Shown here: piece by piece, positions 1-57,200 of the stretch
Position numbering within the stretch: position 1 is the stretch's first letter
Layout: each line of letters opens with the position of its first letter
DNA from: Gigantopelta aegis
Taxonomy: Eukaryota > Mollusca > Gastropoda > Neomphalida > Peltospiridae
Direction of reading: 5' to 3'
Assembly: GCF_016097555.1 (NCBI RefSeq)
Contig: NC_054708.1
Location: forward strand, 1,306,382 to 1,370,381
DNA: 64,000 bases
Made by a program: the position numbers and the translations under genes
The notes under the pieces: generated by a model
What the model was told of the DNA's origin: nothing
Seen by the model: only the letters and a program-made list of their open reading frames with translations
The model's database searches: none

Positions 1-893
1 ATCTACAGTAACACACACATCGTTGCTACACACCGTACCAACCAACATGATCACCTCCAGAACCAGATCATCGTCAGCCTCTCCTAGTTAAATAAACAAC
101 ACCAGACATCTTTACATTATACTGTGATCTACAGTAACACACACATCGTCGCTACACACCGTACCAACCAACATGATCACCTCCAGAACCAGATCATCGT
201 CAGCCGCTCCTAGTTAAATAAACAAACACCAGACATCTTTACATTATACTGTGATCTACAGTAATACACACATCGTCGCTACACACCGTACCAACCAACA
301 TGATCACCTCCAGAACCAGATCATCGTCAGCCTCCCCTAGTTAAATAAACAAACACCAGACATCTTTACATTATACTGTGATCTACAGTAACACACACAT
401 CGTCGCTACACACCGTACCAACCAACATGATCACCTCCAGAACCAGATCATCGTCAGCCTCTCCTAGTTAAATAAACAAACACCAGACATCTTTATATTA
501 TACTGTGATCTACAGTAACACACACATCGTCGCTACACACCGTACCAACCAACACGATCACCTCTAGAACCAGATCATTGTCAGCCGCTCCTAGTTAAAT
601 AAACAAACACCAGACATCTTTATATTATACTGTGATCTACAGTAACACACACATCGTCGCTACACACCGTACCAACCAACACGATCACCTCTAGAACCAG
701 ATCATTGTCAGCCGCTCCTAGTTAAATAAACAAACACCAGACATCTTTATATTACACTGTGATCTACAGTAACACACACATCATCGCTACACACCGTACC
801 AACCAACATGATCACCTCTAGAACCAGATCATCATCAGCCGCTCCTAGTTAAATAAACAAACACCAGACATCTTACAGTGATCTACTGTAATT
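1..893 (-). repeat. Tandem array of the KIFAP3 exon 12 acceptor and exon start, ~126-bp unit, about 7 copies
   Basis: The period is about 126-128 bp, with unit starts near 1, 127, 253, 381 and 508. Read on the gene's strand, each unit has a splice acceptor (TTTATTTAACTAG) followed by codons for (G)AADDDLVLEVIMLVGTVC or close variants. This matches the human exon 12 segment AEDDLVLEVVIMIGTVS and follows exon 11 in the right phase (CCAG|GA). About 75 bases of exon are included per unit, then intron-like sequence. The array reaches the window edge, so the complete exon 12 is probably just outside. One copy could be the functional exon. Confidence 0.85.
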
Positions 894-974
894 TAATATA
901 TTTCTTCATTTTCATAATTTAATTCTATAATTTTTTATTAACACTGGAAACAGTGTATTTTTATATGACTGTAC

Positions 975-17019
<16,045 letters not shown>

Positions 17020-17830: not shown

Positions 17831-17839
17831 GTATGAACT

Positions 17840-17915
17840 GGCCGTAACGGGATTTGAACCACTGTCGTCAGCTTGATAGTCCAGCAGCATATCCACTGAA
17901 CCACTAATGACCCGT
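17840..17915 (-). repeat. tRNA-like sequence (pseudogene or SINE head)
   Basis: On the minus strand it has an A-box-like TAGTGGTTCAGTGG and a B-box GGTTCAAATCCC, but the ends do not pair into an acceptor stem. It is probably a SINE head or a tRNA pseudogene rather than a working tRNA. Confidence 0.5.
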
Positions 17916-17930
17916 AGTAATTAGAATATA

Positions 17931-18182: not shown

Positions 18183-18251
18183 TAATTAGAATATATTGTA
18201 GAATGACTATAGTAAGCCAATCGAATGTGCTCATATACATGTACCACAAGC

Positions 18252-21293: not shown

Positions 21294-21301
21294 CTTAGCA
21301 T

Positions 21302-22336: not shown

Positions 22337-22400
22337 TTGGAGAAAACTTGAGTGTTTTCTCTTTTATAGATACATTACCTGTCCTCAAACAAGGGCACCC

Positions 22401-22431
<31 letters not shown>

Positions 22432-22989: not shown

Positions 22990-23830
22990 TTATTTTTGTA
23001 ATAACAAGCGACAACCTAATGAGGTGCATCCGTCAGAACATTGAACTGCTGGACCAACGATAGAGGAGAGGGCCTGCACAACATACGAACAAGGCGCTTG
23101 GTCTGGTAACTGATTCTTTGCAACAAAGTTCATGAGTAACCCCAAGTTGATTGCACGCCGATCTCGGTGAAAACGTACCAAGTCTACATCAAGAGCATGG
23201 AGTTCTGAGACACGGGCAGCCGTGGCGAAACCGAGTAAAAACACCGTCTGCCGCGTCAAGTCTTGCAGGGAAGAGGATTCGATCGGCTCATAAGGTGCGG
23301 TCGATAACGCTCGTAACACCAGATTCAGGTGGTCGAAACCAGTGTACTTGATCATCAAGGCGAAACCCTTTGATCATCTTATGGATGTCAGGAATACCCG
23401 ACAACTTCATTCCAGTAGTGACATCACGAACAGTAGCGATGACCGAAACGTACCCAGCGATGGTAGACCCCTTCAATCGTAAAGTGGTCCACAGATACAG
23501 CAAAAAATCAGCAAGACGAGGTATCTGGATCGTCTGAGATTTGAGTTTTTGCCGGACACACCATCGGTGAAAACAAAGCCATCTGACGTTGTAAGCCGCA
23601 GTAGTAGATGATCTGTTCGCTTTCAAAATGGCTGCCGTAGACTGTGAAGAAAAACCTTTCTTCCTCAAACTCTTGGAGATAAAGTCCACGCGTGCAGTTG
23701 GAACAACTGCGGATGTGGATGGTATAGTCTTGACGTGGGATGCAGCAACAGATGATCCCAGTCTGGCAGCGATAAAGGATGTGGATCGGCAAGACGTATT
23801 AGATCTGGGTACCACATCCTGGATGGCCAC
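22990..23830 (-). mobile_element. DIRS element: tyrosine recombinase region
   Basis: The sequence resembles a tyrosine recombinase, with an N-terminal SAM-like part (WLCFHRWCVRQ) and a catalytic-domain part (FLLGFATAARVSELHAL). Broken; part of the element at 22337-27603. Confidence 0.75.
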
Positions 23831-25700
23831 AATGGTACAGCTGAAACCTCTGAAGCACCCTTGGAAGGAGGATTGGTGGAGGAAAAGCGTACGCGTCCAT
23901 CTGTTCCCAGCTGATGGCCAAGGCGTCGAGATCCAGAGCTTCGGGATCCGGCACCAGAGACACGTAAACCCTCAGCTGATGGTTGAATCGTGTGGCGAAG
24001 AGATCGATGTTTGGTGTCCAAAGTCTGTCGCACACCCATCGAAACGCTTCGGGATGGAGCATCCATTCCGTCGGCTGTGGAGACGACGGTCGAGACAATG
24101 TGTCGGCTAGTACATTGGAAACCCCTGGAATATGGCGAGCCCGAAGATGCAACGGAATCTCATCGACCAGCTTGTAGAGATGATAAGTCAACTGCAGCAG
24201 ACTGCTGGAGTGGGTTCCGCCCTGACGGTTGATATAAGCCGCCGTGGTAGTACTGTCTGTGGCCACCATGAGAGAGGCCCCTGTCAACATGTCGCCAATG
24301 AAGGATAGCGTAGTAGACTGCCAACAACTCTAGCAGGTTGATGTGGAGTCCGAGTTTGCCGGGAGACCACAGCCCTGAAGTAGTCTGGTTGCTTAGATGG
24401 GCTCCCCAACCTTCCATTGACGCACGACGAACAGGTGATGAGTGGCTAGGAAGGCCTGCATAGAGACACCGTCTAAGACGTTCGATCGGAGCTGCCACCA
24501 CTGCAGGCTGGAGCGTAGATTGTCCGGGAGTGAGATGATCAAGTCCGGATTGTTGAAACGAACAACGGGTTGAGAAACATCTGCAAGCGCCGCAACTGGA
24601 GACGACCTCAGTGTGTCAAATCCTGAGCGGAAGTGAGGAGACCCAGGAGACTCTGCCAACCGTGGAAAGTCGTTGGAGCGGTGAGGGCTATGGCAATCAT
24701 GGTCTGGATCTTCTCCCAACGGTCTAGTGGAACTTGAACGAGGCCCAGGTCGGGTCGAAGCCAAGCGCCTATGAACTGTAGAGACTGCGTGGGAGCCAGT
24801 CGAGATTTCTCGATGTTGATAATCCAACCCAGATGCTTGGAAAGTCCATGATGAAGGCAACATGTGCAGTAAGCCCTGTCTTGCTCTGACACTTCATCAG
24901 GCAGTCGTCGAGGTACGGGTAAAAGGATATACCTCTGCGATGCAGGAAGCGGGACATCGAAGTCGTGATTCTGGTGAACAGCCATGGCGCCATGGATATC
25001 CCCAAAGGGCAGGACTGTCCATTCGTAATGCCGACCCTGTAGCATAAACCGGAGGTAGCGATGAAAATCGAAATGCATCAGAACGTGAAGGTAGGCGTCC
25101 TTGAGATCTAGCGAGGCAAGCAAATCCCCCGGTTTGATCACGGCAAGGACATTTCGCAACGTTAACATCTTGAAGGTCGGAGGAGGAAACAGGTAGTGGT
25201 CGTTAAAAAACGCCAAGTTGTGGATCATTCGCAGCTCCAGAGAATCTTTCTTCGGTACGAGGAAGATGTCCGAGTAAAAGCCGGGTGTTAAGCGTGCTTC
25301 CGAAATGCTGCAAACGGCTCCCTTCTCCACCAGTTTGTTGATGGACTCCTGTAGGACCTTGACTTGCGAGACGGAATGCCGCGGTTCTCGAGGTGAAGTG
25401 GTCAATGGAGGGATGGCAGACAATTGCAGACGATACCCTGTCTTCAAGATCGACGTGACAAACGGATCTTGGCAAAGTGGCTGCCAGTTTTGCCAATAAC
25501 GGCGAAGTCGACTTCCAACCATGGATATTTCGACCGGTGTGTTGCACACTGGAAGCGTCAAAACCGAGTCGTTGTTCTGGTTCAAAATCAGGGGCGGGCG
25601 TAGGTCGAAACAATCTGAGCAGTCCAAGATCTGTTGGCTGGCGTCAACGTCGACCAGGCTTCCCCTAGGTCCGAGCTGAGGACCGGATGGTAGTCTGTCC
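23799..25700 (-). mobile_element. DIRS element: reverse transcriptase and RNase H region
   Basis: RT-like motifs (FYSDIFLVPKKD, LLASLDLKDAYLHV) and an RNase H-like part (ATDSTTTAAYINRQGG, HIPGVSNVLADTLSR) are visible. This order and sequence are characteristic of DIRS elements. Broken. Confidence 0.8.
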
Positions 25701-27174
25701 GGAAACCGTCGAGAAGGTTGACCTTGAAAGGTTACCTCTCCAGCACTTAGATGGTGGTACGTAGACTTTCGCTTCGTGGATTCCAACGTCGAAAAAAGTT
25801 GCAACGCTTTGACAGTTGCTGTCGACTGTTGGTCCTTATCATTGGCCGTAACCACGTCAGAAACCTTGCCTGGAAACAGCTTTGTTGCGGACCACAGTTG
25901 AGCTAACAACTCTTTCTTATGCTGGAAATCCAAAGTTGACTTTTTCAGATAAGCCTGGCGACGGTACTGCATCAACATCGATGACATAGAGGTAACCGAA
26001 GACGTCAGGAAAGCTAGCATCTGCGCTGATTGCTGAAACAGCGCGTAGCACCGTGCATCTTTTGCCTGGGTGGCCATCGCAGAAAGGAAAATGTCCAAGT
26101 AAGATAACACAAACAAGCAACGTCTCTGGGCAGTATCCATGGCTTGGACCCGTTTGTCCATCAAATCCACAGTTGACGACTTCCCAAGATGGTGAACATC
26201 TTCATCCACAGACGGAGCCCCATCTTTAAAGGGCATGTGAAACACCGGATACATACGGTGATTCCAAGACAGGAAGGCGACAAAGGACGCTGTGTTTTTA
26301 AAGGTGCGGTCTAAATCCGTCGCGAGTGTACCGGTGTATCAGTCGCTATCATCGGTGTCGGTCCCTTCTTGGATGGCGTTGGTGGATGTGGCAAGGACGA
26401 CAACATGTCATAGACGGCCGCCAAGCAATCCCTCATAGTCATATGGTTAGGAGAGTCAGGCTCATCAATGATAGAAACCGCTGCATCTCCAAAGTCTCGA
26501 AGCACTCGAGCACAGGCTAATCGATCTGCCGAAATGGAAGCCGCTGGTGAACCGGACTGCGGACGGTCCCGTCGAGAACCCTCGGAGGCCTCAATCGAAG
26601 GTCGGCACTGACGATCCATGGAACCCATAGGGAGCCGTGCAGGTCGTGGGGAACGACTACGGTCCCGGCTCCGATGCGCCGAAGATGACTTCCCCGCTGA
26701 AGATCAGTGAGCCTTGGAGTCCGTGGAATGTCTAACTGCATGAGTCGGCTTGTCAGAGGGCTGCGTAGGAACCGCAGGCCTGTCATCCGAAGTCTTACAT
26801 CTTGGTAGAGCTGAAGAAGCCGCACCCCCTGAAGAGGGGACTTGCACCGGACCTGACCCCAAAACCGCTGGTTTTGGTAAGGTCGCCATTGACGCCATTG
26901 TTTCTTTCAGCATGGTCGGTAGCATTGAATGTAATACTTCCGCTACGGAGTCAGCAATTGAAGGCGAAGATTCCACTTTCTTGGTTCTCGCTGACACCAC
27001 CTTCAGGTAAGCCGCGAACTCGACATTAGACAGGCCCGAACACAGGTCGCTTCTCGAAGAGAGGCTACAAGGAACACGACAACCCTGACATAAATCATGA
27101 GGGTCGCCGCCCGCAGTAAATTTCTTACAGCGTAAACACGCTCGTACCTGTCGCTGAACATTAACATCCGACAT
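25701..27174 (-). mobile_element. DIRS element: gag-like region
   Basis: The start of the element's first reading frame has a cysteine cluster (CLRCKK...CQGC) followed by serine/proline-rich sequence. The family role is structural; function here is not claimed. Broken. Confidence 0.6.
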
Positions 27175-27844
27175 GATAATAAGTTTTCAATCTGTGAAAG
27201 AGCAAGAAAAAACCAACCATGACACAAACACAAAGCCGGTCAACAAAGACGCCATTTTGCAAATGGCGTCCAACACGACAACCGGCAATATATCAACATT
27301 TCATGTAAATAAACGCTTGGAAAGTCAAGCGAAATACGCGAAGACATACGAAAGCTAACGAAAACGAAGGTGAAACACATTTCACCCAAACACAAATACA
27401 AAACCAAAGGTCTTATAAAAAAGTCGACTCCAAACAGAGCCAAGCAAAAGGACGTCCAGACCCTTTAACGAAGAGAAAAAGAGAGCAGTATGCAGTAGAA
27501 GAATTTAGGCCATCCCATTGGCTGTTGGGATGTTCGGACCAGACCACTTGCGTGGGGGAGGGAGGTGCCCTTGTTTGAGGACAGGTAATGTCTATAGAAA
27601 TGTTATTTATTGATGAAATGTCACCTGGACATGGAGTCCATGCAATGCTGCTAGCTCTACTGGTATATACCAGTAGAGCTAATTTTAATCAGATTGTTCT
27701 TTTATTTCAAGCCCTTCAGACATCAGACATGTAGATTTGTGCGTCATTTAGTAAAAGGTCGCACAGGTCAGATCAACTGAAAATTTTCATCCAATGATTC
27801 AGATTACAACTCATGAACCCTTTACCAAGCGATTCTTTTAACTT

Positions 27845-32253: not shown

Positions 32254-32259
32254 TTCGCG

Positions 32260-38502: not shown

Positions 38503-40530
38503 TAAGCTTATAATTTTGAAGCAGGACGGTTAGACCCCTCGTTAATAATGATATATATTAATATAGTGACACACACTAAACAGTCACAAAAGTGGATTAT
38601 TAATTATTATTTCTGATGTGTTGTTCCATTTGCCCTTTTCTGGTTAGTCTCCCACCCCCCGCAAAATAATTCCTGGATCTACTCCTGAATACAGAATTAT
38701 TTTCAAGGATGGTCTAAAGGCTAGGGCTAGCTCAGAATGACCATATGAATACACAGATCAGTGGCCAACGGACTCTCCTGCATCAGAATGCGATTGTGTA
38801 AAACAAAAATTCCACTGAAAAAAATAATCCACCCTATAGTGGTACAGACTGTTTAAATGCGAATTATAATTAAGCCGAATAAGAGATTTTCACTTCGTTG
38901 ACAAAACCAAATAGAGGACCCCTTCCCCCTCTCTCCCAAAGTCGAGTAGTCGAGTATGCGAAAAGCACGTGCAATGGCACATGCGAAACAGACCACTGGC
39001 GGTGGCATGGTTTTATAAAGGTCCTCATGTCAAAATTGTTCCGATTCTTTTCTTTGTACATTAAACTTTTTTCTTTTTTTTCCAATCAATCAATCAAGCA
39101 AGCAATGGGGTGGACGGCTCTCACACTGAGGGGGGCGGGCAACATTACTGAATCGTCTTATGGGGCAAATACAAAGACACGTGTGCAGCGATTTTAGCAA
39201 TTCTAGACTGGCGATCTAACAGGTCATACGGGCTCTTATTTTTGTAGGGGGCAGGGCAGACTGATTTTTGCCCAAATTAAACGAAAATGGAATTTTAAAA
39301 AACTACATTTTATTTATATTAGCCATATTTGTGAATGACTGCGGCTGGTATTCGTACGAATGGCTAATTACATGTAGGCTTACAAATATAACGTGAGAGA
39401 CAAGTGGACAAACACTTAAAATCGTAGTTTCAGTTTGTAAAATACATGTCTTTACATTATATACATATTGTCATTACCTGTAGAAAACAAAAATAATACA
39501 AGAAAAATAGGTGGAACTACAACGATTAATATATTTTGAAGAGGATGACTGGCCATGGGACGAACAGTCTAGGGCTACTATGACATGGGCCCCGAGACAT
39601 ACAGAGTCGAATTATTATGAACTAGTGTTTAAAATGACGAATCAAGAGGTTTAAGAAGAAAATAATAATGATAATAATCATCATCATCGTTATAAAGGAA
39701 GGGGGGGAAGTGGAAGAAAAAAATTCCACCGTATTCAACGTTTTTGAGTCTCGAGATAAACCCTGTGTTCATCGCCCCATCTAGCGGCAGTTACAACGTA
39801 AATACTTCCGTTTTGTGAGTGATCCGCAACTGGCGTATCAAGTGTGTCCCCTTTGAGGAGTTACAGTAAGTCGTTTACAGCATCACTTTTCATAAAACTA
39901 GTCATGCACAATCTATATATGTTTCCCCTACTCGTACTATAAAATTTCAAAGGATATAAAAAGAAAAACATCAAAAACTTCATCTCTCTTTTTAAACGTA
40001 TAATTTTTTCATGTCGTCAGTTCGTGTACAGTTTTAATAGTGGTTATGTATCGCCGTCTAAAATAAAACCAAGACTATATACTGTTAGTTATTTTACATA
40101 CAATTTCAAGAAACATGTATTATTTGTTTGTTAGAATATTTGTTTAATGAAATTTACATAGAAACGACTAAAAATTGAATATACCGACAGACTGATCGGT
40201 AACTACAGGTGATCTGGAACTGGCGCATCACCTGTACTAACAATATTAAATTGGACATGGTTAAAAAAACAGCTGAAGGAGAGAGTGAGTCTGAGAGTGA
40301 TACTGACATTCAATAATCTGTCACTGTCTCAGGGTAATAAACATATAAACCAGGTACATAATTTGTTTGGACTCTTTTATTTTGTATAGATTTAATAAAA
40401 TAAGTGTAAAATAAAAGCAATACCTGTGCTCTAGAACTGCTTCTCAAATTCAAACATTTGCCTCCCAATTAAAGTTTGAAAAGCAAAGATTGCCCCCCAA
40501 TCAAACAAATTAATTTCGAGCCTTGAAATG

Positions 40531-41291
40531 TATAAACCATATTTGCTCAAGTGTTGATATCCCATTCGATAATGTGCTTAACAAATGTTTATTCAGAATA
40601 GATATCATTTCTGTAAAATTGAAAAACTTGTTCAACGATATGTTACACATACCTATTTACCCATTAACCCAAGAGGAAAAAGTTAACAAATTAAGAACAT
40701 ACGGTATCTTCAAGCATGAGGCCAGTTGCTCAAACTACCTCAACATAAAAAAAACAAAGACCACATGAAAGCTCTCATTACTCAGGGCAAGTTGTCATCC
40801 ACTGGAAATTGAAAGGGGGCATTACCACAAACAAAAAAACGCACGAGCAAAGATTTTGTCCTTTCTGCCCCAATAAAACTGAGGATGAGTTCCACTTTTT
40901 GCTAAAATGTATAGCATATACTACAAATAAGAAAAAAATGCTAACTGATAATCATATTGCTAAAAAATATATGATGCTAACTGATAATCATATTGCTAAA
41001 AAATATATGAACTTAAAAGTTTAACCTTTTGAATAAAAATTAACAACTAAAAATAATTTTGAAAACACCAATAGATATTGCCCTTTAAACAAGCGAATGT
41101 TTTTGAAAATCTGAAAACTCGATCATCTAGACTGTCTCATTAAGTTAGCTACTTGCATGCAAATTTTATGGACCTATTAGTTGTTAACCATACACGTTTT
41201 ACCATGTAATGTACATATATGTAATTGTTATTGTTTTTGTACCTGCTCCTTTTGAGTTTTTTGTACAATAAAATTGAATTGAATTGAACTG
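40531..41291 (+). mobile_element. Decayed LINE, 3' part beyond the hAT-like insertion
   Basis: It continues the LINE C-terminal region (NHICSSVDIPFDNVLNKCLF, then the zinc-binding EQRFCPFCPNKTEDEFHFLLKC) across frame changes. It ends with AATAAAATTGAATTGAATTG, a polyadenylation-like tail of (TTGAA) units. A ~36-bp direct duplication is present near 40935-41008. Confidence 0.75.
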
Positions 41292-42656
41292 AATACTTTT
41301 CTTAGAACCACTTTTTTTTCTACGTCTGTTTGGACTAGGGGACACACACACATGCCACCCCCTCCAACGCTTGGGGGTGGGAAGCTCTTATTAAATGCGA
41401 GTTCATATTGTGGCCCCATACTAGCCTGAAACTTAAAACTGGCAAGTAGTTTATTGCTCTCCTCAATTGGGGGTGGGGGAGTGGGGGGTATCAATCGTTT
41501 TGCTATGGCTATTGTTGAAGAAAGTCACGACTTAAAGAACGGTTTCAAATTGTAAACCCATCAAGGCAATATCGTAAAAACAGCCATTTTGTTCTTTAAC
41601 ACTAAACTATCACTGCAACAGAATGCATAAACGTTGATGACGGGCTATTATTATTATTATTATTATTATTATTATCAGCGTTACTTACTGCCTCTACGTC
41701 ACGTCACGTCCACCAGTGAACGATTAAGAAAATACCTCTTGAAAAATAACCCTAGTTTTAAAAATCAAAATGGAATGCACACAAAAATTAGTTATTCAAT
41801 CACTGAATATATTTCAATATTTGAGTTGGTTAATCTGTCAGCTGTTTCAAATTACTAAATTGAAACGTTTTGCATGCTTGCGTGAGAAATTGGTTTTCAA
41901 TATGGGTACGTCTTCATCATACACCAGTGGATGTTAGATCGTAGCTGAAAGAGGTTTCCAGTCTATTGCCGAGATGGCTTTGGGAAAACTTGCATAACTA
42001 TCAACCCGTTACATTCTAAATAAAGCTATACACAATTTTTTATTGTTTATTTTTTAAATTGCTCTTCTCATTTGGTATTTCTCGCCTGGGATCATATTCA
42101 AGAGAGCAGTGGATTGCTTTCCTGCTACTTTCAAATGGAGAGGCCTGTTACCGTATTTATTGCGTCTATGCAGACGTTTTTAACGATTTGCTATTTATTT
42201 TTGTCATAAAAATAAAGCAAAGAGAAAAAGATAACTTTTTCTGTTTGCTCCACAAATATTGTGAATAACTACAACACTTAACTCAAACACTGAATTCTGA
42301 ACGTTGGGGCTAGATTTTGCATGAACTTAAAAGATAAAATTTCATCTCTTAATTTATTCAGAAACATTAAAATACGCGGCTTAAAACCAAATCTACATGT
42401 TATTGTTTCAGTGAGTTTAATCTGCAGTTCTGATTTTAATTGGATAAGTTGTGATGAATGCGATTACAAACGAAGTATAAACTAACCATGTCTACAATAC
42501 TTGAGTATCACAAAAAAAAGACTGAATCCAGGTCACTTTGCGAAGAAGGCGTAACAGATTTTGAATACCGGTAGTATTCTTATTGCGTACGTTTATACTA
42601 ATGTGCATATTTGTAAATATATTTGCTGGGTGATTCTAAACTAAATTCTTTAAAGG
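41292..42656. other. Intergenic stretch, no gene recognised
   Basis: It holds a (TTA)n microsatellite at about 41643-41675 and otherwise unique-looking AT-rich sequence. Confidence 0.55.
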
Positions 42657-42801
42657 CATAAGCGTACAAGACAGGATGGTGGGGGTGGGGATGGGGTTGG
42701 AGGTGGGGACAACTGCTAGAGCGAAACCTCAAATTCGGGCAAAAATTATAGAGATATTCGGAGAAAAATGTGCTAAACTGAGACCTTTTATTTAGTTAAT
42801 T
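42657..42801. mobile_element. MITE end fragment
   Basis: It starts CATAAGCGTACAAGACAGG and is related, in inverse orientation, to the right half of the element at 46342-46837. Both contain the anchor aaattcgggcaaaaattata or its relative. A SINE is inserted at its right side. Confidence 0.6.
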
Positions 42802-43218
42802 CCATCATAGGAAAGAAAGAAAGAAATGTTTTATTTACGACGCACTCAACACATTTTATCTACGGTTATATGGCGTCAGACATATGGTTAAGATATTGAA
42901 ATTAAACAATTAGAAGAAGATGAAAACCAGATTAACTCAGAAATATTAGAACAAAAACGAAACGAATTAATAGAATTAAGAAAAAACACATTAAACGGCA
43001 AATTTGTCAGATCAAGAGCGAAATGGATCGAAGAAGGAGAAAAACCTACTAAATACTTTTGTAACATGGAATCACGGAACTATACTAGTAAGCTAATTTC
43101 TAGAATAGAGTTAGGTAATGGACAAATAATAACCAATCAAAAAGATATCTTAGAAAAAACAAAACGATTTTACTAAGCTCTCTACTCCGAAAGAAATAAG
43201 CAAATTGACGATGACTTT

Positions 43219-44202
43219 ATGGAAACTATAACACATATCAATTTTAACAAACTCAGTAATGATGAAGCAGAAGAACTAGAAGGTGAAATTAGTTATTCTG
43301 AAGCATTAGCTTTTCTCAAAAATATGAAAAATGACAAAAGCCCTGGTTCAGATGGGTTTACAGCAGAGTTTTTCAAAATGTTCTGGAACGATGTTGATTA
43401 TTTTATTATACGGTCAATTAATTACAGTTACAGTATAAGCGAAATGTCAAATACTCAAAAATTAGGCGTGATCACTTGTATCCCAAAGCCAAATAAACCT
43501 AAACAATTTCTCAAGAATTGGAGGCCAATTACTCTGTTGAATTGTACATACAAGATTGCATCAGGATGCATAGCAAATCGAATAAAAAATGTATTAGACA
43601 AACTTATTGCAAGTGATCAAACTGGTTTCATAAAAGGTAGATATATTGGGGAAAATATAAGATTAATATACGATATATTGCAGTACACAGAAGAACAAAA
43701 TATACCTGGTATATTATTATTAATAGATTTCGAAAAGGCATTTGACTCTCTTTCTTGGAAATTTATCGAAAAAGCGTTGGAATTGTTTAATTTTAAAATA
43801 TCTATTAAAAACTGGATAAAAACCCTTTATAACAATTCAACTTCAAGAGTACTTAAAAATGGATTTTTATCAGAAAGCTTCAACTTAGAACGTGGATGTA
43901 GACAAGGTGACCCTCTCTCACCATATATTTTTATTATATGTGCAGAAATCCTCGCAATATTAATCAGAAATTCTAAAAATATAAATGGTTTAAAAATTAG
44001 TGGAGAGGAATTCCTCTTATCTCAATATGCAGACGACACAACCTTCATTCTAGATGGATCTCCCAAATCCCTTGAGAATACCTTAAAAATCCTAGATGTG
44101 TATGCTAATGCTTTTGGTTTGAAGATAAACTATTCGAAATCGAAAGTCATTTGGATAGGCAGTAAAACGTTCTCAAAAGAGGTTTATCATCAAGTAAGAT
44201 GA
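43219..44202 (+). pseudogene. LINE ORF2 reverse transcriptase segment
   Basis: This is the longest open stretch of the L1/Tx1-type ORF2, covering the RT fingers, palm and the YADD box (327 residues). The frame actually extends upstream to the truncation point near 42904 past a single stop and continues downstream past another. It copies RNA at target nicks in working relatives; this copy is interrupted. Confidence 0.9.
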
Positions 44203-44669
44203 AAATTAGAATGGGGTGCAGAACATTTTGAATTGTTAGGAATAAAATTTTCAGTTGACCTGAAACAAATTACTACAATTAATTTTGAAATAAAAATTAA
44301 TGAAATAAAAAATTTAATAAAACTTTGGACAACAAGAAAACTGACTGTGTTCGGTAGAATAGTTGTTTTAAAATCCTTAATTATCCCCAAATTAACACAC
44401 TTACTAATTTCACTGCCTAACCCATCAGACAAAATGATAAAACAAATAGATAAAATGTTTTTAAACTTTATCTGGCAAAATAAACCAGACAGAATAAAAC
44501 GCGAAGTTTTAACTCAAAGTTACTCAAATGGTGGCCTTCAAATGCTAAATATTTTGAATTTTATGATAGCTTTAAAATCCACCTGGATTAGCAGACTATT
44601 TTCAACTAACGCAAAATGGAAAACATTTTTTGAAGTTACTACAAAATTATCTGTGCAAAATCTTATTAC

Positions 44670-45728
44670 GTGTGGGGATTATTTTATCCAAAAAAAAAAA
44701 AAAAAAAAAAAAGTAACTCTTTCTGGGGAAATGTTTTACATAGTTGGTGGCCAATTCAACAAAAACTAATTCCCGAATGTAAAAATGAAATAATTAGAAT
44801 TAATATTTGGTTTAATAGTAAAATAACTATTGACCACAAACCTATATATTATGAAAACTATATTAAAAATGGAGTTATATTTATTCAAGATTTAATGGAT
44901 GAACATGGTAGATTTTTAACCAATGAAACATTTAGATTTAAATTTCACATACATTCAAACTTCTTAGAGCATGCATCTTTAATCAAAGCAGTTAAAACCT
45001 TTATGCATTGCACATTGTCAAGTATCAACAACCAACAGGTTAACACCTTAAATCCTATATTCCCTTTTAAATTGAAGTTATTTTTTAAAACTACTAAAGG
45101 GTGCAAAGAAATGTATAATATTTTAAACAAATCGACAATAGTGCCAACTTCCCAAAGAAAATATTACAATTTAGGTTTCATACTATCATTACAGGAGTGG
45201 GAAAAGGTGTATAATTTACCATTTATATGTTTAAAAGATACAACTTTACAGTGGTTTCAATATAGAATTCTACATCGAATAATCACCACAAACACGTTCT
45301 TATATAAAATAAAATACATAGAATCAAATGTTTGCGATTTTTGTCATAGACAACCAGAAACATTGGAGCATTTGTTCTATGACTGCTCTAAAGTCTTTCT
45401 TTTATGGAAGGAAATTGAACAATGGATTCAGGACAAAGGTGAACGTACACAACTCGATAAACAGACAGTCTTGTTTGGAATCATAAAGAGGGAAAAAAGC
45501 AAGATGGTATTTATTAATTGGCTCATTATCAATGTTAAATACTATATAAATAGATCTAAAATGCAGAAACATGGACCTAACATATATGCTTTTTTAAATA
45601 TTTTAAAAGATAAAATAGAAATTGAAAAATATATACTTCTCAAAAATTGTCAATTTCAAGAATTTGAGGAATATTGGGCACCTTGGTCCAGATACCTAGA
45701 AACAAGACATGGCAATACAAATTTCTAG
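44670..45728 (+). pseudogene. LINE ORF2 C-terminal segment
   Basis: The 352-residue frame follows the A-run frame change and ends at the ORF2 stop at 45728. It includes WFQYRILHRIITTNTFLYKI and the CCHC-like CDFCHRQPETLEHLFYDC typical of the L1/Tx1 C-terminus. Confidence 0.85.
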
Positions 45729-46341
45729 AGGTATTTCAATACAAATATGTTTTCTCTTTCGAAATTAAAGTATTTAATTCACTCTTTCTTTCTTTCCTTC
45801 TTCCTTCCTTACCTTCTCTTTTCTCCCTTTACCATTTCCTTCAAATCTTTCCTCTACCTCTATCGTCACTGTTAACCCCACATATTAGTGAACTCCATGT
45901 TTTCATGTATTCATGCTTATTAATATTATTATATTGATTCTAATTACACTATATTATATATATATAAATAATGTTCATATGTACTTATAACATGGATGTA
46001 AGGTAGTGAAATCAGGGTCCCCAACCCTGACACTGCCATACTTGTGTCTGGGGACAATAAATTATAAAAAAATAAAATAATTTCAAGACATAAAAAAAAA
46101 AAAAAAAAAAAAAAAAGATATTGAAAGAGGAAATTCACGGGCTACTCTTTTCGATTAGCAGCAAGGGATCTTTTATATGTACCATCCAACAGACAGGGTA
46201 GTACATACCACGGCCATTGATATACCAGTCGTGGTGCACTGGCTGGAACGAGAAATAGCCCAATGAGCCCACCGACGGGGATCGATCCCACACCGACCGC
46301 GCATCGAGCGAGCGCTGTACCACTGGGCTACGTCCCTCCAT

Positions 46342-46837
46342 CATAGCGTACGGGCTCCCATTTTTGTACGAATTAAACGAAAATGACCTAATCTGGATAA
46401 CATTTCCACCCCCACCCCCTCAAATTAGCATTACTACCAAACAACTAAAAGGGTTGCAAACGAATATTTATGCATGTTTACATGGATTACCAAGGCCGTA
46501 GCTAGCATGGGGGAAAGGGGTGGGGGGGGGGGGGGGGGGGGGGTGGGGGGGAACTGCCGAAAAAAATTGGAAAGCATTATAGAAACTTAAAGAAAAGGAG
46601 TTTTAGACTATTAACTACTCAGTCCCCCCCCCCCCCCCCCCCCCAAACAAAAAATCCTAGCTACAGCCCTGATTACAAATAAATTTGCGGGTAGAATGAT
46701 GAAAATACATGCTAGAAAGGTCTCAGGTTAGTATATTTTGCCCAAATATCTCTATCGTTTTGCCCGAATTTAAGGATTTTCTCCAGCACTAGGGGGGTCA
46801 GTTGTCCCTTCCATGGCCCCTGTTTCGTACGCTTATG
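46342..46837. mobile_element. MITE related to the element at 20987-21293, with a nested MITE
   Basis: It begins CATAGCGTACGGGCT and ends GTTTCGTACGCTTATG, complementary ends as in the copy at 20987. A second MITE sits inside at 46491-46671. The target duplication is not clear here because a SINE duplication overlaps the left end. Confidence 0.6.
46491..46671. mobile_element. Small MITE with poly(G)/poly(C) arms and 5-bp target duplication
   Basis: It begins CAAGGCCGTAGCTAG and ends CTAGCTACAGCCCTG. ATTAC is duplicated at 46486-46490 and 46672-46676. Long G and C runs lie just inside the ends. The CA-A/G-GGC termini and 5-bp duplication resemble the hAT-like elements at 36076 and 48563. Confidence 0.75.
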
Positions 46838-46841
46838 ATAA

Positions 46842-46920
46842 TAATAGTAATAATAGCAGTAGCAGTAGCAGAAGCAGCAGTAGCAGCAGTAGTAACAATA
46901 CTAGTAGCAGCAGCAAAAAG
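46842..46920. repeat. (AGC/AGT/AAT)n microsatellite
   Basis: A trinucleotide run of aataatag, cagtagcag and similar units over about 75 bp. Confidence 0.85.
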
Positions 46921-47037
46921 TAAGAACAAAACATCTCAAATCTGTGTATTGGTCTCTAATAAGACAATTATTAAGATAAATTTATTTTAGAAGAGTAGTC
47001 TAAAAATAAGTCAAGAAAGAAATTTAAAGAAATACAC

Positions 47038-47415
47038 AAACAAATACAGAAGTAAAGAGAGCGTCAGTGGGGACCTAAAACTAGCCTGATGGCTGCTTCA
47101 ACTTTGCACACAATCAAATACAGAAGTAAAGAGAGCGTCAGTGGGGACCTAAAACTAGCCCGATGACTGCTTCAACTTTGCACACAATCAAATACAGAAG
47201 TAAAGAGAGCGTCAGTGGGGACCTAAAACTAGCCTGATGGCTGCTTCAACTTTGCACACAATCAAATACAGAAGTAAAGAGAGCGTCAGTGGGGACCTAA
47301 AACTAGCCTGATGACTGCTTCAACTTTGCACACAATCAAATACAGAAGTAAAGAGAGCGTCAGTGGGGACCTAAAACTAGCCTGATGGCTGCTTTAACTT
47401 TGCACACAATCAAAA
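47038..47415. repeat. Tandem repeat, 73-bp unit, about 5 copies, upstream of ARPC5
   Basis: The unit contains aaatacagaagtaaagagag and ggggacctaaaactagcc. Copies differ at one or two bases. No exon similarity; it lies about 0.7 kb before the ARPC5 start. Confidence 0.9.
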
Positions 47416-47430
47416 TTAAACACATTTGAC

Positions 47431-47905
47431 TTTAGGATCTAGCTCAGTCAGTCGCTTTGGTTGCAGGATCGAAGCCCCTCAGCGGACCCATTCTCTGATT
47501 GTTTTCCCACCCCAACCAGTGATCAGCAATTATTTATTTTAAAGGCCATGGTAAGTACTGTCCTGTCTAGGAAAGTGCATACAAAAGATTGATTCTTGCT
47601 GCTAATGGAAACATGTTCTAAGACTCATTCCTGACGTTACGCGTTAAGTATTACGTAACCACCGGCTCGCGAGAGGGCGTATTCGTAGCCGTCACATTTA
47701 ACCGTTTTATTAATTAAATGTAAGATTATACTTGTTGATATTAAGCAATAGTGTTGAATATGCATTCCAGTCGAAAAGCCTTGCTTAAGCATTCCTTTAA
47801 GCTACTAATGTAGCGGGCTTTCTCTCTCTAAAACTACATGTCAATTTTACCAAATGTTTGATATACCAAAGTGTTCTAGTGCTATCGTCAAACATACCAA
47901 ACTTT
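47431..47905 (+). mobile_element. SINE interrupted by a MITE-like sequence
   Basis: The head has TTTAGGATCTAGCTCAGTCA and GGATCGAAGCCCC. The tail is gtgttctagtgctatcgtca. A ~200-bp insertion at 47617-47816 breaks its central domain. Confidence 0.75.
47617..47816 (+). mobile_element. MITE-like sequence with a second copy at 61445-61697
   Basis: It contains attcctgacgttacgcgtta and taaccaccggctcgcgag. It matches, in reverse orientation, the sequence at 61445-61697 over most of its length. It is inserted in a SINE. Family unknown. Confidence 0.65.
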
Positions 47906-48021
47906 AACTTTTATCGTTTGTGAGACACAAAAATATAGTAATTTATGTTTGTTGTTAAGTACCAACGATAATTGATTGATACGCTTCGTTTTCACCTATG
48001 TAAGAAAACCAATCTAATTCT

Positions 48022-48029
48022 ACTTCCGG
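48022..48029 (+). promoter_or_regulatory. ETS-type site ACTTCCGG before ARPC5
   Basis: ACTTCCGG lies 55-62 bases before the ARPC5 ATG, a common position for ETS sites in TATA-less housekeeping promoters. Function is inferred only. Confidence 0.4.
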
Positions 48030-48083
48030 GGTGGTGTTTTTTTTTAACGTGTTAGACTCTATTTCCCTAAATTAATTAGAACG

Positions 48084-48220
48084 ATGTCCAAGAACACAGG
48101 TGCTAGCAAGTTTAGGAAGGTTGATGTCGACCAGTACGATGAAGATAAATTCCAAGATGAAGAGACTGATGTAGCAGAACAAGGACCAAACGAATCTGAA
48201 GTTAACACCCTACTGAGTCA
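48084..48220 (+). CDS. ARPC5: ARPC5 coding exon 1
   Basis: The exon encodes [40 protein letters not shown] and NTLLS plus two bases (CA). It ends directly before ATATCCTTCC. No GT donor keeps the frame. Confidence 0.9.
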
Positions 48221-51200
48221 ATATCCTTCCTTGTTCAAGTTATGGAATTGTAAAACTTCGGCGGAGGAATTGGGGTGGGTGGTGGCTGCATCCCCAATAA
48301 TTATCCTTTACCCCCCCCCCCCCCCCCCGGGATTTTCATGAAAGTAATTTATCCTGTTGAGATTTGTTAAAACTAAAACTTCGGATATATTTCCTAGTTG
48401 ACACACAAAAGTTTTTTAAATAATCGGAATAAACATCCACCCCACTCCCATTATTTTCATGAAAATAGGGAACCCATCCTAACCCAAAATCTAATTCCAA
48501 ACCCAAACTCTAAACCTAACCATAACCAATTGGGGTGGGGGGAGTAACAGTTGGATTGTTTACAGGCATCGAAATAACTATAAGCATTGTGTCTGGTAAC
48601 CCCTTTACAGGTTACCACAAAAAATAGCCTGGTAACCTATAGGTTACCACAACTATATGAAAGTTAGAATTGACTTCCTGTTACTACTACTTTTAACATG
48701 GCCGTTCTGATATTGTATCGATGCGTGCAAACATCGATACGAGAAACAAAATCCAGAAGTAAATTTATCTAGTGGATGCTGCTTAAACGCAGATTGCCGA
48801 AATTGCTTTGCAGTTGCACAAGTGCGCACAAACATCGATGCAATTCCTTGTGAGAAAATGAAATACGGAAGTCCGGAATGCATTGCCTGGTTTACGTTCG
48901 GAAATGAAACTACCGTTTGAAATTTTTGTCGAGAACAAACCACCGTTCTTGACTTTTTTTACATGTGGTAACCTCCTGGTAACCTGAACGATCATTCTTG
49001 ACTTATTTCGATGCCTGGTTTACTCCTTTGGGATAAAAAGTTAGTTTGTTTTGTTAAATGACACCACTGACTGACTTACTTATCCTCTTAGTACCTTGTG
49101 GCACATAAGGCCCACACAAGATCTCTCCAAACTACTCTGTCTTGGAGTTTCTTGGCTCCCATACACCATGTCAGTTCAGCATTCTTTAGTTCTTCCTACA
49201 TTGTCCATCGCCATGTGGTTCTTTTATGTCCGAAACTAGTTACATACCCTATATGTAGCTGGTATTCAAAACTTGTGGCACCATGTTTCAAATGTTTCTC
49301 AACCGAAATAGTGCACAAATGGACACACAAACCAAAAATGTATAATCTACCATACTAAATCCCGATTGAAGTACTTGTGTCATTATTAACAAAATAAATC
49401 TCCCAACGACAACCATCAAAAGTCCCCCGCCATTTTAAATATGTTACATAGAGGAAAGCAGCTCGCCGTGCACGTAAAGAAAAGTATTGACATAATGTGC
49501 CCCGTGCACTAGTCTTAAAGGGGAAGCCTGCTACATTTTCCACAATTGGTAGCAAGGGATATATACACCATCCCACAGACAGGATAGTGCATACCATTAC
49601 GTTTGATATACCAGTCATGGTGCACTGTCAGAGATTGATCCTGTGCATCAGGCAAGTACTCTACCACTAGGCTACATCCTGCCACATCCTTTGAGATACT
49701 GGAGTTGAAATATTTCACCAAACATCATGCATATCAGATATTGAAGACTGTTAAATTTGAAAGTTAAAAGTGCATGAAAAAGTGATGGATTATTAGAGTG
49801 AGATAAAAAAAAATATGAAGACTGATTCCCTATATTATGTAATAAATTACATAGCTTTTTTTTAAAGTTTAATTTTTATTTAAATTGTTTTGGGGTTTTT
49901 AAACATGCATTGACATGAACATATGTATGGATGCAACTTTTAAGTGTAGGTGAGATTTTTAATTTTGCTGAATTCTTGTTATGTTTTATTAACTAATTCC
50001 TTGACTGTAATAACAAAAAAGAATGCTGATGCGCTGAAGTTGGTTTTGAACTCTGCACCCATTGGAACTAAGAATCAAGCTGTAAAGGTAAGCTATTATA
50101 GCACACACATGTATATACAGACAGACAGACAGACAGACAGACACGCATGTATATACATACACAGACAGACACACAGACAGACAGAGACAGACAAACACAG
50201 ATAGACAGACAGACACACACAGACAGACAGAGACAGACAAACACAGACAGACAGAGACAGACAAGCACAGACAGACAGAGACAGACAAACGGATATCATA
50301 TTCAACATACAAATGTATTTGTAAATGCATATGATATTTGTCTTGGTACATGTATGTGTAAATTGTATGCTAGTATGCAGGTCCTAATTTAGAATTGAAA
50401 AAAGTAGATGTGACTTCTCCTTTCCCAGTGTGATCAAAATGGTGAAGTTAACATTTATCACATTTTAACTGATTTTCATACAAACAGAAATTAATTATAT
50501 AAAAATGTATTAAACAAGATTGTCTGATGTCAAGAACAAATTATGTTTAATTTGTTCTTGTTCAAATAATCCTTAAAAAATTCATTTCTGTTTGTATATG
50601 TATAAAATTATTTATTTATGCTGAAAGGCTAGTGATATATACTCTTCCAAAAAAGTAGGGGAACTCTAATAAGAATTTACAATTGCCAAAATTGTAAGGT
50701 ATATTAGCTGTGGGGAATGGTTATATGATAATAGTGAATTAATTGGGCAAACATTACAACTGGTAGTTCAGTATTATAGTAAGGATGATTGGGGTCAGAA
50801 GTGAAATTTGAAAGTTGATGGGTTTTTTATCAGTAAATTGCAAATTCAAACAATAAAAATGACTAAAAACAAAACAATAATAACTGTATGATCAACAGAA
50901 TGAAAAACATTGACAGAAATAATGTTCCACATTGATTAATGGACCTTCCTGGAAATTGTCAAAATCGAGAATGACACCCCGCATACATGTACAGGGCAAC
51001 TGCGTGATGCATGTGCAAACTATGGAATGTGTTTCGGTGTGTTGATAAACAGACCTGAACATTCTTTATTAGGATGTCTGTGGTCAAAACGTATGTTTGG
51101 TCTAATAGTTGATATTAACATTAATATTTCAGGTTCCCCTGCTTTTTTTGAAGAGTATATATAACTGTTATAAGAGTGTATAAAGTTATACATGTATTTC

Positions 51201-54200
51201 CATATGTACATATTTATTGTTAATTTTCTGTGAATCTGAATTGTCAAAATAATGTATGCAATTTTTATGGTTCCATGTTATCATTGAACTGTTTGTTATT
51301 CGCTTTTCAAGTTATTTTTTTAATGGATTCACAGATGCATCTAATCCCACAAGAAATCATCATTGAGTAGTTTTAACTGAACAAGGTTCTTACTGTCTTT
51401 TCAAAATTAATTTCTGACAATATGCTGTCATGATTGGGTATACGCATATGGGTATTGCAAGTACCTGCATATGTAAGCAATCAACATGGATGCTAATTTG
51501 CATATTTTGCTTACGTACATGGAAAATGTGCACATGGAAATGTAGCTTAATATTGCATTTGTTTTTAAATGGGTGCACTGTGTATTAATTATTATGTGTA
51601 TTTTGTGAAGTAGGAGATGTGTACATTAACATGGATTTTTCAGGATAAAGCTGGTGCACTTGTTTTGAGAGTTCTTACGTCATTCAAGACAAGCGATATA
51701 GAATCAGCCATAAAGTCGCTGGACTCCAAACTGATTGACATTCTGATGAAGTACATATACCGAGGGTTTGGACATCCGTCTGATAACAGTAGTGCTATTT
51801 TATTAGCCTGGCATGAGAAGGTGAGTGTATGTACATCAGTGTATAGATCTGCCGAGATTTGAACATCTGTCTGATAACAATAGTGCTATTTATTAGCCTG
51901 GCATGAGAAGGTGAGTGTATGTACATCAGTGTATAGATCTACCGAGATTTGAACATCTGTCTGATAACAATAGTGCTATTTATTAGCCTGGCATGAGAAG
52001 GTGAGTGTATGTACATCAGTGTATAAATCTACCGAGATTTGAACATCTGTCTGATAACAATAGTGCTATTTATTAGCCTGGCATGAGAAGGTGAGTGTAT
52101 GTACATCAGTGTATAAATCTACCGAGATTTGAACATCTGTCTGATAACAATAGTGCTATTTATTAGCCTGGCATGAGAAGGTGAGTGTATGTACATCAGT
52201 GTATAAATCTACCGAGATTTGAACATCTGTCTGATAACAATAGTGCTATTTTATTAGCCTGGCATGAGAAGGTGAGTGTATGTACATCAGTGTATAAATC
52301 TACCGAGATTTGAACATCTGTCTGATAACAATAGTGCTATTTTATTAGCCTGGCATGAGAAGGTGAGTGTATGTACATCAGTGTATAAATCTACCGAGAT
52401 TTGAACATCTGTCTGATAACAATAGTGCTATTTATTAGCCTGGCATGAGAAGGTGAGTGTATGTACATCAGTGTATAAATCTACCGAGATTTGAACATCT
52501 GTCTGATAACAATAGTGCTATTTTATTAGCCTGGCATGAGAAGGTGAATGTATGTACATCAGTGTATAAATCTACCGAGATTTGAACATCTGTCTGATAA
52601 CAATAGTGCTATTTTATTAGCCTGGCATGAGAAGGTGAGTGTATGTACATCAGTGTATAAATCTACCGAGATTTGAACATCTGTCTGATAACAATAGTGC
52701 TATTTATTAGCCTGGCATGAGAAGGTGAGTGTATGTACATCAGTGTATAGATCTGCCGAGATTTGAACATCTGTCTGATAACAATAGTGCTATTTTATTA
52801 GCCTGGCATGAGAAGGTGAGTGTATGTACATCAGTGTATAGATCTGCCGAGATTTGAACATCTGTCTGATAACAATAGTGCTATTTATTAGCCTGGCATG
52901 AGAAGGTGAGTGTATGTACATCAGTGTATAGATCTACTGAGATTTGAACATGTGTCTGATAACAATAGTGCTATTTTATTAGCCTGGCATGAGAAGGTGA
53001 GTGTATGTACATCAGTGTATAAATCTACCGAGATTTGAACATCTGTCTGATAACAATAGTGCTATTTATTAGCCTGGCATGAGAAGGTGAGTGTATGTAC
53101 ATCAGTGTATAGATCTGCCGAGATTTGAACATCTGTCTGATAACAATAGTGCTATTTTATTAGCCTGGCATGAGAAGGTGAGTGTATGTACATCAGTGTA
53201 TAAATCTACCGAGATTTGAACATCTGTCTGATAACAATAGTGCTATTTATTAGCCTGGCATGAGAAGGTGAGTGTATGTACATCAGTGTATAGATCTGCC
53301 GAGATTTGAACATCTGTCTGATAACAATAGTGCTATTTATTAGCCTGGCATGAGAAGGTGAGTGTATGTACATCAGTGTATAGATCTACCGAGATTTGAA
53401 CATCTGTCTGATAACAATAGTGCTATTTATTAGCCTGGCATGAGAAGGTGAGTGTATGTACATCAGTGTATAGATCTACCGAGATTTGAACATCTGTCTG
53501 ATAACAATAGTGCTATTTATTAGCCTGGCATGAGAAGGTGAGTGTATGTACATCAGTGTATAGATCTGCCGAGATTTGAACATCTGTCTGATAACAATAG
53601 TGCTATTTTATTAGCCTGGCATGAGAAGGTGAGTGTATGTACATCAGTGTATAAATCTACCGAGATTTGAACATCTGTCTGATAACAATAGTGCTATTTA
53701 TTAGCCTGGCATGAGAAGGTGAGTGTATGTACATCAGTGTATAAATCTACCGAGATTTGAACATCTGTCTGATAACAATAGTGCTATTTATTAGCCTGGC
53801 ATGAGAAGGTGAGTGTATGTACATCAGTGTATAGATCTGCCGAGATTTGAACATCTGTCTGATAACAATAGTGCTATTTATTAGCCTGGCATGAGAAGGT
53901 GAGTGTATGTACATCAGTGTATAGATCTACCGAGATTTGAACATCTGTCTGATAACAATAGTGCTATTTATTAGCCTGGCATGAGAAGGTGAGTATATGT
54001 ACATCAGTGTATAGATCTGCCGAGATTTGAACATCTGTCTGATAACAATAGTGCTATTTATTAGCCTGGCATGAGAAGGTGAGTGTATGTACATCAGTGT
54101 ATAAATCTACCGAGATTTGAACATCTGTCTGATAACAATAGTGCTATTTATTAGCCTGGCATGAGAAGGTGAGTGTATGTACATCAGTGTATAGATCTAC

Positions 54201-57200
54201 CGAGATTTGAACATCTGTCTGATAACAATAGTGCTATTTATTAGCCTGGCATGAGAAGGTGAGTGTATGTACATCAGTGTATAAATCTACCGAGATTTGA
54301 ACATCTGTCTGATAACAATAGTGCTATTTATTAGCCTGGCATGAGAAGGTGAGTGTATGTACATCAGTGTATAGATCTACCGAGATTTGAACATCTGTCG
54401 TTCATGCTCTTAAATCATCTGGTGAAAGCAACTAGTTTTATTTTTGATCTTGTGAATTGTTACCTTCGGACACTTTTCTCCCTGAATTTTATAAATGTTC
54501 ACCTTTTTTGTGTAATACCAGTTTTTTTTACTTTGATGAACCCCTTGTGTTGCTTCAAATGCCAGAGGTTTGGCCATGGTCAGAACACATGTCGTGGAAA
54601 ACTTACATATGCTCGTTGTGGTTTGTTTGACCATGACAGCAAGACATGTAAGAATGATATACTTTGTCTCAATTGCAAGGGCAACCACTGTGCATACTCA
54701 CGAGAGTGTCCACGGTGGAAGCTGGAAAAACAAGTTCAAAAGGTAAAGGTACAAAATAAACTGTCCTTCACGGATGCCAGGAGGTTGGTGGAGACAGCAA
54801 CACCGACAGTGGTTGACAAGTCATATGCAGCTGCAGCTGCTGCCAAAGTCGCCACTAAAAGTGTTGCAGTCAACACAGACCTCACCTGGCATTGTGATGA
54901 AGCCAAGTACAAGAAACTGTCCGATACTGAGAAGGCACAAAAACAGGTGCAAAAAGCAGCACAAAAAGAAAAAATTACACCCCAGCAAAAGGAAATCGAA
55001 ACACAAGTGTCACTGGATTTTAAAAATCCACCAAATAGGTCGAGCACTAGTCTCCCTAAGACACGCAATGACACAAAGAAATCTTCAAAGAAATCTACAG
55101 AAGTACTGTCTGGTAGGCTGAAAAAGATCGAACTACGTTCGGTCCCGATCAGCAATATCTACGAAACATTGACTGATATTGGTGATGATGATAATATGGA
55201 GATTTCATCTCCAGATCATTGCCGATCACAAAGACCACCAGCAAAGCCAAAGATAAAACCCATACTTCCTCCCGATGAAAAATAAAGTTATCCAGTGAAA
55301 CTGTCGTTTTGATGAATTAAGTCTTCTAATTCAAAAGTATAATCCTCTTGCAGTGTGTCTTCAGGAAACTTTCCTAAAGGATACTGACAGTATTAACATC
55401 AGAGGATTTAATCTCTACCATAAATGTCAAGAAACTGACAATAGAGCGTCTGGGCGAGTTTCCATTATTGTAAATGAAAACATGCCCCAGAGTAAAGTCA
55501 TATTAAAGTCGACTTTACAAGCTGTGGCTGTAAAGGTCACGGCTCATAAAGCTATTACTCTATGTTCAGTTTATTTACCCCTTCTAAACAATTACAATTT
55601 AACACTAGGGAATTTCAAAGTCTTCTTGATCAACTCCCTACTCCCTTTATTATCGTGGGAGATTTTAATGCTCAACACACGTTGTGGGGATGCGATGACA
55701 TAAACACTAGAGGTAAACAATTAGAAGACTTAATTCTCAAAAATGACTTAATATTACTTAATGATAAAAGTCATACATACTTTGTCATTAATATTGTCTG
55801 ATGTCCATCTCATTTAGGAGAGCACTTATATAGGCTCTGCCTGTTGTGCAATCCTTTTGATTCTTTTTTGATCAAAAAAATATCTCAAAACAAAACAAAT
55901 ACATACTTTCATCCTGCAAGTGGTTCTTTCACATCCATTGATTTAACCTTTTGTAGTCCATCACTTTGTCTTGATTTCTCCTGGAAAGTTTGTCCAGACC
56001 CTTGTGGTAGTGACCACTTTCCAATTATTTTGGAGAATGATGGACCTCCATCACTTTGAAAGGGCTCAGAGGTGGCAGTTGACGGGCAAACTGGGATCAA
56101 TTTCGGCATCTATGCAGCAACAAACTGCCCTGATTGGTGCCGATGATCCCATGTCTTTGTTCACCTAAATCTTGAAAGATATTGCAGACGAAACGATTCC
56201 TAAGACTATCCTGAATATTTATTGCATTGCTCGGGCAAAGGCTCATAAAGCTATCAGACAGAGTAAGAAATCATCTTGGAGAAATTATGTCTCCAAGTTG
56301 AGTTCTCAAACATCTGTGAAATCTTGTCTGGAATAGGATACATAAAATCAAGGGAAAAGAATCCAATAATACAGTTCGCCATTTGTCTGTCAATGACACG
56401 GATGTGACGTCTCATTGTGACATTGCCTGTGAATGACACGGATGTGACGTCTCATTGTGACATTGCCTGTGAATGACACGGATGTGACGTCTCATTGTGA
56501 CATTGCCAATGCATTGGCAGACGATTTCTCTCACAACTCTTCTTCTTCTTTCAGTACAGATTACTACAGATGCTTTTACATCTGTCATAAATAAAGCTGA
56601 AAAGCAACCTATTAACTTTTCATCTGAAAATGCTGAAGTATACAACAGGCACTTCTGTTTGGAGGAGTTGCAGGATGCTCTACGTAGAGCCCATGATACT
56701 TCAGTAGGACCAGATGAAATACATTATCAACTCTTAAAACACTTACCTGAATCATCCTTGATGGTTCTATTAAATATCTTTAACAAAATCTGGATTTCGG
56801 GTGACTTTCCTTCTGATTGGAGAAAAGCAACTGTCATTCCTATTCCTAAGCCTGATAAGGATTCAACAAATCCTACCAGTTATCACCCTATTGCTTTGAC
56901 AAGCTGCATTTGTAAAACCATGGAAAGAATGTTCAACCGTAGACTTGTCTGGTATCTCGAGTCCCACAAATTGCTTACTAACATGCACGGTCGATCATCT
57001 TGTTAGATTTGATGCTTTCATCCATAACCAGCATTTGGTATCGGTCTTTTTTGACCTCGAGAAAGCTTATGATACCACGTGGAAGTATGGGATTTTGAAA
57101 GACCTGCATGGCATGGGCCTAAGAGGCTGTATGCCTGACTTCATCTCAAATTTTTTACAGAATAGGTCTTTCAAGGTACGAGTGGGATCTACGTTATCTG

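Follow-up and report, generated by a model that had tools for sequence, protein, structure and literature searches.

Minisatellites spanning exon-intron boundaries in two genes of the gastropod Gigantopelta aegis look like by-products of a tandem-repeat-rich genome

Are exon-intron boundaries places at which minisatellites preferentially arise, or are they taken in by chance in a genome that forms tandem arrays in many places? This question is raised by a stretch of 64,000 bases from the gastropod mollusc Gigantopelta aegis (contig NC_054708.1, positions 1,306,382 to 1,370,381; hereafter the window), in which introns of the genes KIFAP3 and ARPC5 contain minisatellites whose units extend across the edge of the neighbouring exon. 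The G. aegis genome is described as having a size of 1.15 Gb, 15 pseudo-chromosomes, and a mean GC content of 37.22% (PMC7895826); the assembly searched here comprises 1,149,253,464 bases in 5,216 contigs. The exon edges of KIFAP3, ARPC5, and a third gene, NTMT1, were set by homology (KAP3, ARPC5, and NTMT1, respectively) and by splice junctions, and arrays were called with Tandem Repeats Finder (TRF; period of at least 15, score of at least 50).

In total, six arrays, five in KIFAP3 and one in ARPC5, are built of units that straddle the edge of the adjoining exon and hold 4-72 exon bases, as judged by TRF and by alignments:

1..893, minus strand: KIFAP3 exon-12 acceptor array, 127-base unit with 72 exon bases, the acceptor, and intron sequence
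1320..3010, minus strand: KIFAP3 exon-10 donor array, 67-base unit with 30 exon bases (two mismatches) and GT
3230..4575, minus strand: KIFAP3 exon-10 acceptor array, 84-base unit with 24 exon bases
10815..12879, minus strand: KIFAP3 exon-6 donor array, 46-base unit, starting about 4 bases inside the exon
15776..16464, minus strand: KIFAP3 exon-2 donor array, 71-base unit with 56 exon bases, GT, and about 15 intron bases
51821..54399, plus strand: ARPC5 exon-3 donor array, 90-base unit with 63 exon bases and GTGAGT

The exons in the window from which these units derive are the following:

3011..3229, minus strand: KIFAP3 exon 10, with an array at each of its two edges
12880..12975, minus strand: KIFAP3 exon 6, set by homology and junctions
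16465..16596, minus strand: KIFAP3 exon 2, set by junctions and assigned by comparison with KAP3
51644..51820, plus strand: ARPC5 exon 3, set by a Pfam P16-Arc match and a junction

These six arrays, which had been listed in the original prediction, were all recovered as real by TRF, except that the exon-2 array is detected by TRF from 16115 on and its portion past an insert was found by BLAST (basic local alignment search tool). The coordinates given earlier hold, and the statement that five of the six carry 24-75 exon bases was likewise borne out by unit-exon alignments; the exon-6 array is marginal as a boundary array, with an 11-base match and 4 exon bases only. The exon-12 array, whose copies translate to KAP3 fragments in all three frames searched, continues into the 10 kb directly left of the window (stretch L032, positions 9630-10000) as far as the true exon 12, and comprises 7 copies in the window and 2 further decoys in L032. 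In all six cases, the functional source exon is intact at the end of the array and adjoins the copies (that of exon 12 lies in L032), and the body of exon 10 (query 3046-3230) has a single match across the genome. The arrays had also been said to start at the exon boundary. They do adjoin their exons, but this provides no separate evidence, because a unit that holds the splice site must join the exon.

Two of the arrays can be dated relative to mobile sequences. The exon-10 acceptor array is split at about 3772-4176 by an insert resembling a short interspersed nuclear element (SINE) and flanked by a 14-base target duplication, TTTATAACAGGTTA, and the exon-2 array is split by a second SINE-like insert at about 15841-16112 with an 11-base target duplication, GTATCTTCTGA. 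Both target duplications consist of array sequence, and both arrays therefore predate their inserts. We take the two inserts to be molluscan SINE-like repeats; a SINE core scan of viral contigs gave no matches. In the ARPC5 array, the exon parts of the decoy copies (n = 28) are 98.4% alike mutually and 90.4% alike to the true exon, i.e. this array is homogenised within itself to the exclusion of the functional end copy. A sequence resembling a long interspersed nuclear element (LINE) at about 54400-58990 starts approximately where the ARPC5 array stops, and its insertion may thus have cut the far end of the array.

Tandem arrays in the KIFAP3 region are not confined to exon edges. TRF identified seven that span no boundary (4627-4930, 4993-5068, 5819-9109, 9445-9631, 9914-10387, 14586-14665, and 15019-15248), all of them omitted from the list in the original prediction, and five of the six arrays in L032 likewise span no boundary. 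The following served as controls or lie close to an exon:

5819..9109: 64-base intronic array, control away from a boundary
9914..10387: 57-base intronic array, control away from a boundary
4627..4930: 73-base intronic array, control away from a boundary
9445..9631: 21-base array that ends 12 bases before KIFAP3 exon 7 and holds no exon bases

A long inverted-repeat element, with highly similar arms of well over 100 bases, splits the 64-base array at about 7164-7714. In L032, a 69-base array of 4.4 kb (5017-9412) fills a KIFAP3 intron from a point some 160 bases past exon 12; no exon edge is part of it.

The window itself had drawn attention by its arrays. A comparison sample was taken from exons encoding kinesin motors (Pfam PF00225), which were chosen without regard to arrays and are the only set free of selection by the finding. 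From 124 matches in the genome, 62 were taken best first with their DNA, and removal of 2 near a stretch end left 60 exons; 64 matches to PF00118 were left out of the comparison. Boundary-spanning arrays were found at four of these (gene-strand coordinates):

L046, exon 6319-6453: donor array, 105-base unit, 7 copies
L033, exon 4297-4466: donor array
L044, exon 1994-2177: donor array
L048, exon 4829-4941: acceptor array

L046 and L048 are arranged in order on the same strand within a span of some 60 kb and thus probably belong to one gene, giving three kinesin genes in total. The occurrence at 4 of 60 exons indicates that the feature is not peculiar to KIFAP3 and ARPC5, and the earlier claims of independent arrays at both donors and acceptors of unrelated genes and of the same pattern elsewhere in the genome are upheld, the kinesin exons included. 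L048 also has an array of some 107 copies of a 20-base unit (from minus-strand position 4942), which starts at the splice junction itself, opens with the donor's own GTAAGTTTTAACATCCACGA, and holds no exon bases.

Whether boundaries are preferred was assessed against a null of random placement of founder segments in array-collapsed sequence. The share of sequence taken up by arrays is 13.8% in the 216-kb kinesin sample and 69.2% or more in the KIFAP3 region (18,469 of 26,700 bases, with array 1-874 uncounted). The latter array was left out of the test, being the same array as L032 9630-10000; L004 (three kinesin matches, with 14 stops inside the best) was dropped, and 102 of the 114 remaining kinesin boundaries were used. 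The counts leave out two arrays that lie within exons (L051, with about 2 copies of a 21-base unit, and L025, with about 2 of a 16-base unit) and one that overlaps an L004 match. The exon-10 array split by an insert contributes two entries to the expectation, and minor overlaps of L041 with L042 and of L012 with L037 were kept. Four boundary arrays were observed in the kinesin set (102 boundaries) vs 2.19 expected (P = 0.18), five in KIFAP3 (24 boundaries) vs 3.26 (P = 0.23), and one in ARPC5 (6 boundaries) vs 0.18 (P = 0.16). For units of at least 40 bases, the corresponding values were 5 vs 3.06 in KIFAP3 (P = 0.20) and 1 vs 0.15 in ARPC5 (P = 0.14), and a local test of arrays at most 100, 200, or 300 bases from a kinesin boundary gave P values of 0.09-0.33. 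No spike of array starts was visible at position 0 of the kinesin boundaries; starts occur on both sides and also just past the boundary (+3, +27, +40, +54, +79, and +93). The exon share of the units ranges from 0.09 to 0.79 and did not differ from uniform in a Kolmogorov-Smirnov (KS) test of low power on ten values (P = 0.64), which the exon parts entered as recounted, five of them as 56, 30, 63, 29, and 17 bases. A preference for boundaries is thus unproven, with a point estimate of the excess just under two-fold.

The boundary arrays confront the splicing machinery with many additional sites. The GT is intact in 4 of 4 decoys of exon 2, 23 of 24 of the exon-10 donor, and all 28 of ARPC5, and the AG in 9 of 10 decoys of the exon-10 acceptor and 9 of 9 of exon 12 (window and L032 together); at exon 6, the scanned stretch has 35 occurrences of AGAG/GTACACA, one of them the true site, and the motif is absent from the rest of that strand of the window. 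Scored with consensus weights, donor decoys equal or exceed the true site in 3 of 4 cases (exon 2), 23 of 24 (exon 10), and 27 of 28 (ARPC5), and acceptor decoys in 7 of 10 (exon 10) and 2 of 2 (exon 12, L032 only); the figures for the kinesin arrays are 6 of 6 (L046), 3 of 7 (L033), 0 of 6 (L044), and 1 of 2 (L048). The description of these introns as fields of decoy splice sites therefore holds, with dozens of decoys, most of which score as high as the real site. Read-through past the true donor meets a stop after 1, 11, 15, 39, and 18 bases in exons 2, 6, and 10, ARPC5, and L046, respectively, inside the first unit, and after 57 (L044) and 98 (L033) bases, past the first unit. In five of the seven donor cases, splicing from the first decoy donor would accordingly bring in a stop in frame before the first unit ends, and in L044 and L033 it would put the transcript out of frame by adding 56 or 50 bases. 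For every array, protein homology points to the site adjoining the exon body.

Arrays of this kind have a precedent. The name 'mirages' was given to tandem repeats lying over exon-intron boundaries of amphioxus Adh3, and further cases are described for the globins BflGb6 and BflGb9; they are reported at 5' or 3' edges, with splicing undisturbed and with length instability, and are connected with a model of intron gain (PMC3087553). In a second report, PGBD5 and troponin C were added to the amphioxus cases (PMC3902484). The pattern had been thought not to be known as a general genome feature, a remark that the amphioxus mirages answer (PMC3087553). The arrays described here resemble them in that the unit spans the boundary and carries the splice signal in all six (exon 6 being marginal), and the homogenised decoys of ARPC5 with their excluded end copy repeat a pattern also reported there (PMC3087553). 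They differ in that the host is a gastropod mollusc and not a cephalochordate, that up to 29 copies were counted and six arrays occur in two genes of one window, and that both edges of one exon, KIFAP3 exon 10, are affected. In unit size and copy number, the boundary arrays match the ordinary intronic minisatellites beside them, from which they are distinguished by the exon edge and splice site included in the units of KIFAP3 and ARPC5. No molluscan mirage case was recognised among the listed titles and abstract openings of open-licence papers, and what is new here is the gastropod host, the high density, the involvement of both edges of one exon, and the null test.

We consider it likely that the arrays are mirage minisatellites whose founder segment straddled an exon-intron boundary by chance in a minisatellite-rich genome, and that they are tolerated; on the counts, they look like a by-product of such a genome and not the product of a proven attraction to exon edges. 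Through slippage or unequal exchange, the genome would generate tandem arrays in large numbers and retain them, and a founder segment of about 45-130 bases in a short-intron gene would often take in an exon edge. The array would then expand into the intron, with its copies homogenising mutually and the functional exon copy at the end excluded. Under exon definition, a partner site at the opposite edge exists for the real exon alone. The arrays would survive because the spliceosome would join the site nearest the exon body, the sole one with such a partner. Several points weigh against this explanation: neutral tolerance of the arrays is assumed, and we infer the use of the exon-proximal site from protein homology. 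In L044 and L033, decoys score below the true donor (none of six and three of seven, respectively, reach it), so that decoy weakening may matter there. Finally, the counts lie above expectation in all three sets (pooled, 10 vs 5.63, P = 0.06), and for units of at least 40 bases the kinesin set gives 4 vs 1.41 (P = 0.054).

The last two figures bear on the proposal that boundaries are real hot spots of tandem amplification, e.g. through transcription-linked breaks or structures, which we regard as unlikely. Besides the excess in three of three sets, it draws support from the kinesin arrays with units of at least 40 bases and at most 300 bases from a boundary, four of six of which are spanning; however, no single set reaches P = 0.05, the window with KIFAP3 and ARPC5 was chosen on account of the pattern, array starts fall to either side of the boundary and show no visible peak at position 0, and the exon share of the units is evenly spread. 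The original prediction had made exon edges the preferred starting points, and this could not be sustained, with counts not significantly above random placement, offsets on both sides, and the KS result given above. A wider form of the proposal, in which boundaries would be a genuine, about two-fold preferred birth site of minisatellites genome-wide, tied to transcription or splicing, and mirages would then be a general animal phenomenon beyond amphioxus, appears rather unlikely.

Retention of the arrays by selection, for example because they provide reserve splice sites or regulate splicing or the speed of transcription, appears very improbable. The largely intact dinucleotides of the decoys in five window arrays would fit it, but recent homogenisation can explain them (the ARPC5 units being 98.4% alike), decoy use would lead to early stops or frame shifts, and many arrays of KIFAP3 hold no exon edge at all.

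We give still less credence to the view that the arrays represent an early stage of intron gain, with splice-site segments duplicated in tandem, or dispersed introners. An exon-edge tandem duplication is the starting point of such models, one of which was proposed for amphioxus globins, and intron gain by tandem genomic duplication (the Rogers model, as cited in PMC3087553, and a potato RdRp case, PMC4974935) shares with our arrays duplicated segments that hold splice signals. In KIFAP3 and ARPC5, however, the duplicated segments remain intronic, with neither a new exon nor a new intron position seen; as to introners, each of 11 array units searched against the window matched its own array alone.

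That the assembly wrongly expanded a short real repeat is scarcely credible: array lengths in draft assemblies are generally unreliable, but two arrays contain inserts with target duplications of array sequence, the ARPC5 units share changes relative to the true exon, and like arrays are present at unrelated loci.

The remaining features of the window are as follows. KIFAP3 lies on the minus strand and runs from about position 16.6 kb leftwards past base 1 (matches to PDB 9w9h); exons 2-11 are within the window, with exons 2 and 3 probably correctly assigned by reading, and exon 12 and an exon 13 were located in L032. NTMT1 occupies 18.25-20.42 kb of the plus strand.

about 48084-48220, 50015-50087, 51644-51820, and 60200-60262, plus strand: ARPC5 coding exons

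KIFAP3 intron 5 (12976-13262, minus strand) and ARPC5 intron 1 (48221-50014, plus strand) both start with ATATCCTT and end with AC, and both have a CCTTAAC- or CCTTGAC-like branch site close to the 3' end; going by these motifs, we take them to resemble U12-type AT-AC introns. The donor of KIFAP3 exon 13 in L032, GTATCCTT, is also U12-like, and an array begins about 9 bases past it. By eye, long open frames at 22990-27186 (minus strand) resemble a DIRS-type retroelement with reverse transcriptase and tyrosine recombinase, and a LINE-like element at 42892-45728 accompanies the one next to the ARPC5 array, which has a Pfam endonuclease match.

Each intron of this type is a natural experiment in which the spliceosome chooses one among up to about 30 near-identical sites, and it has been proposed that boundary arrays supply raw material for new introns. 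Where such arrays occur, exon edges may be set wrongly by annotation pipelines. The presence of arrays at 4 of 60 exons sampled without selection, here in a mollusc, suggests that mirages may be widespread in animals with minisatellite-rich genomes.
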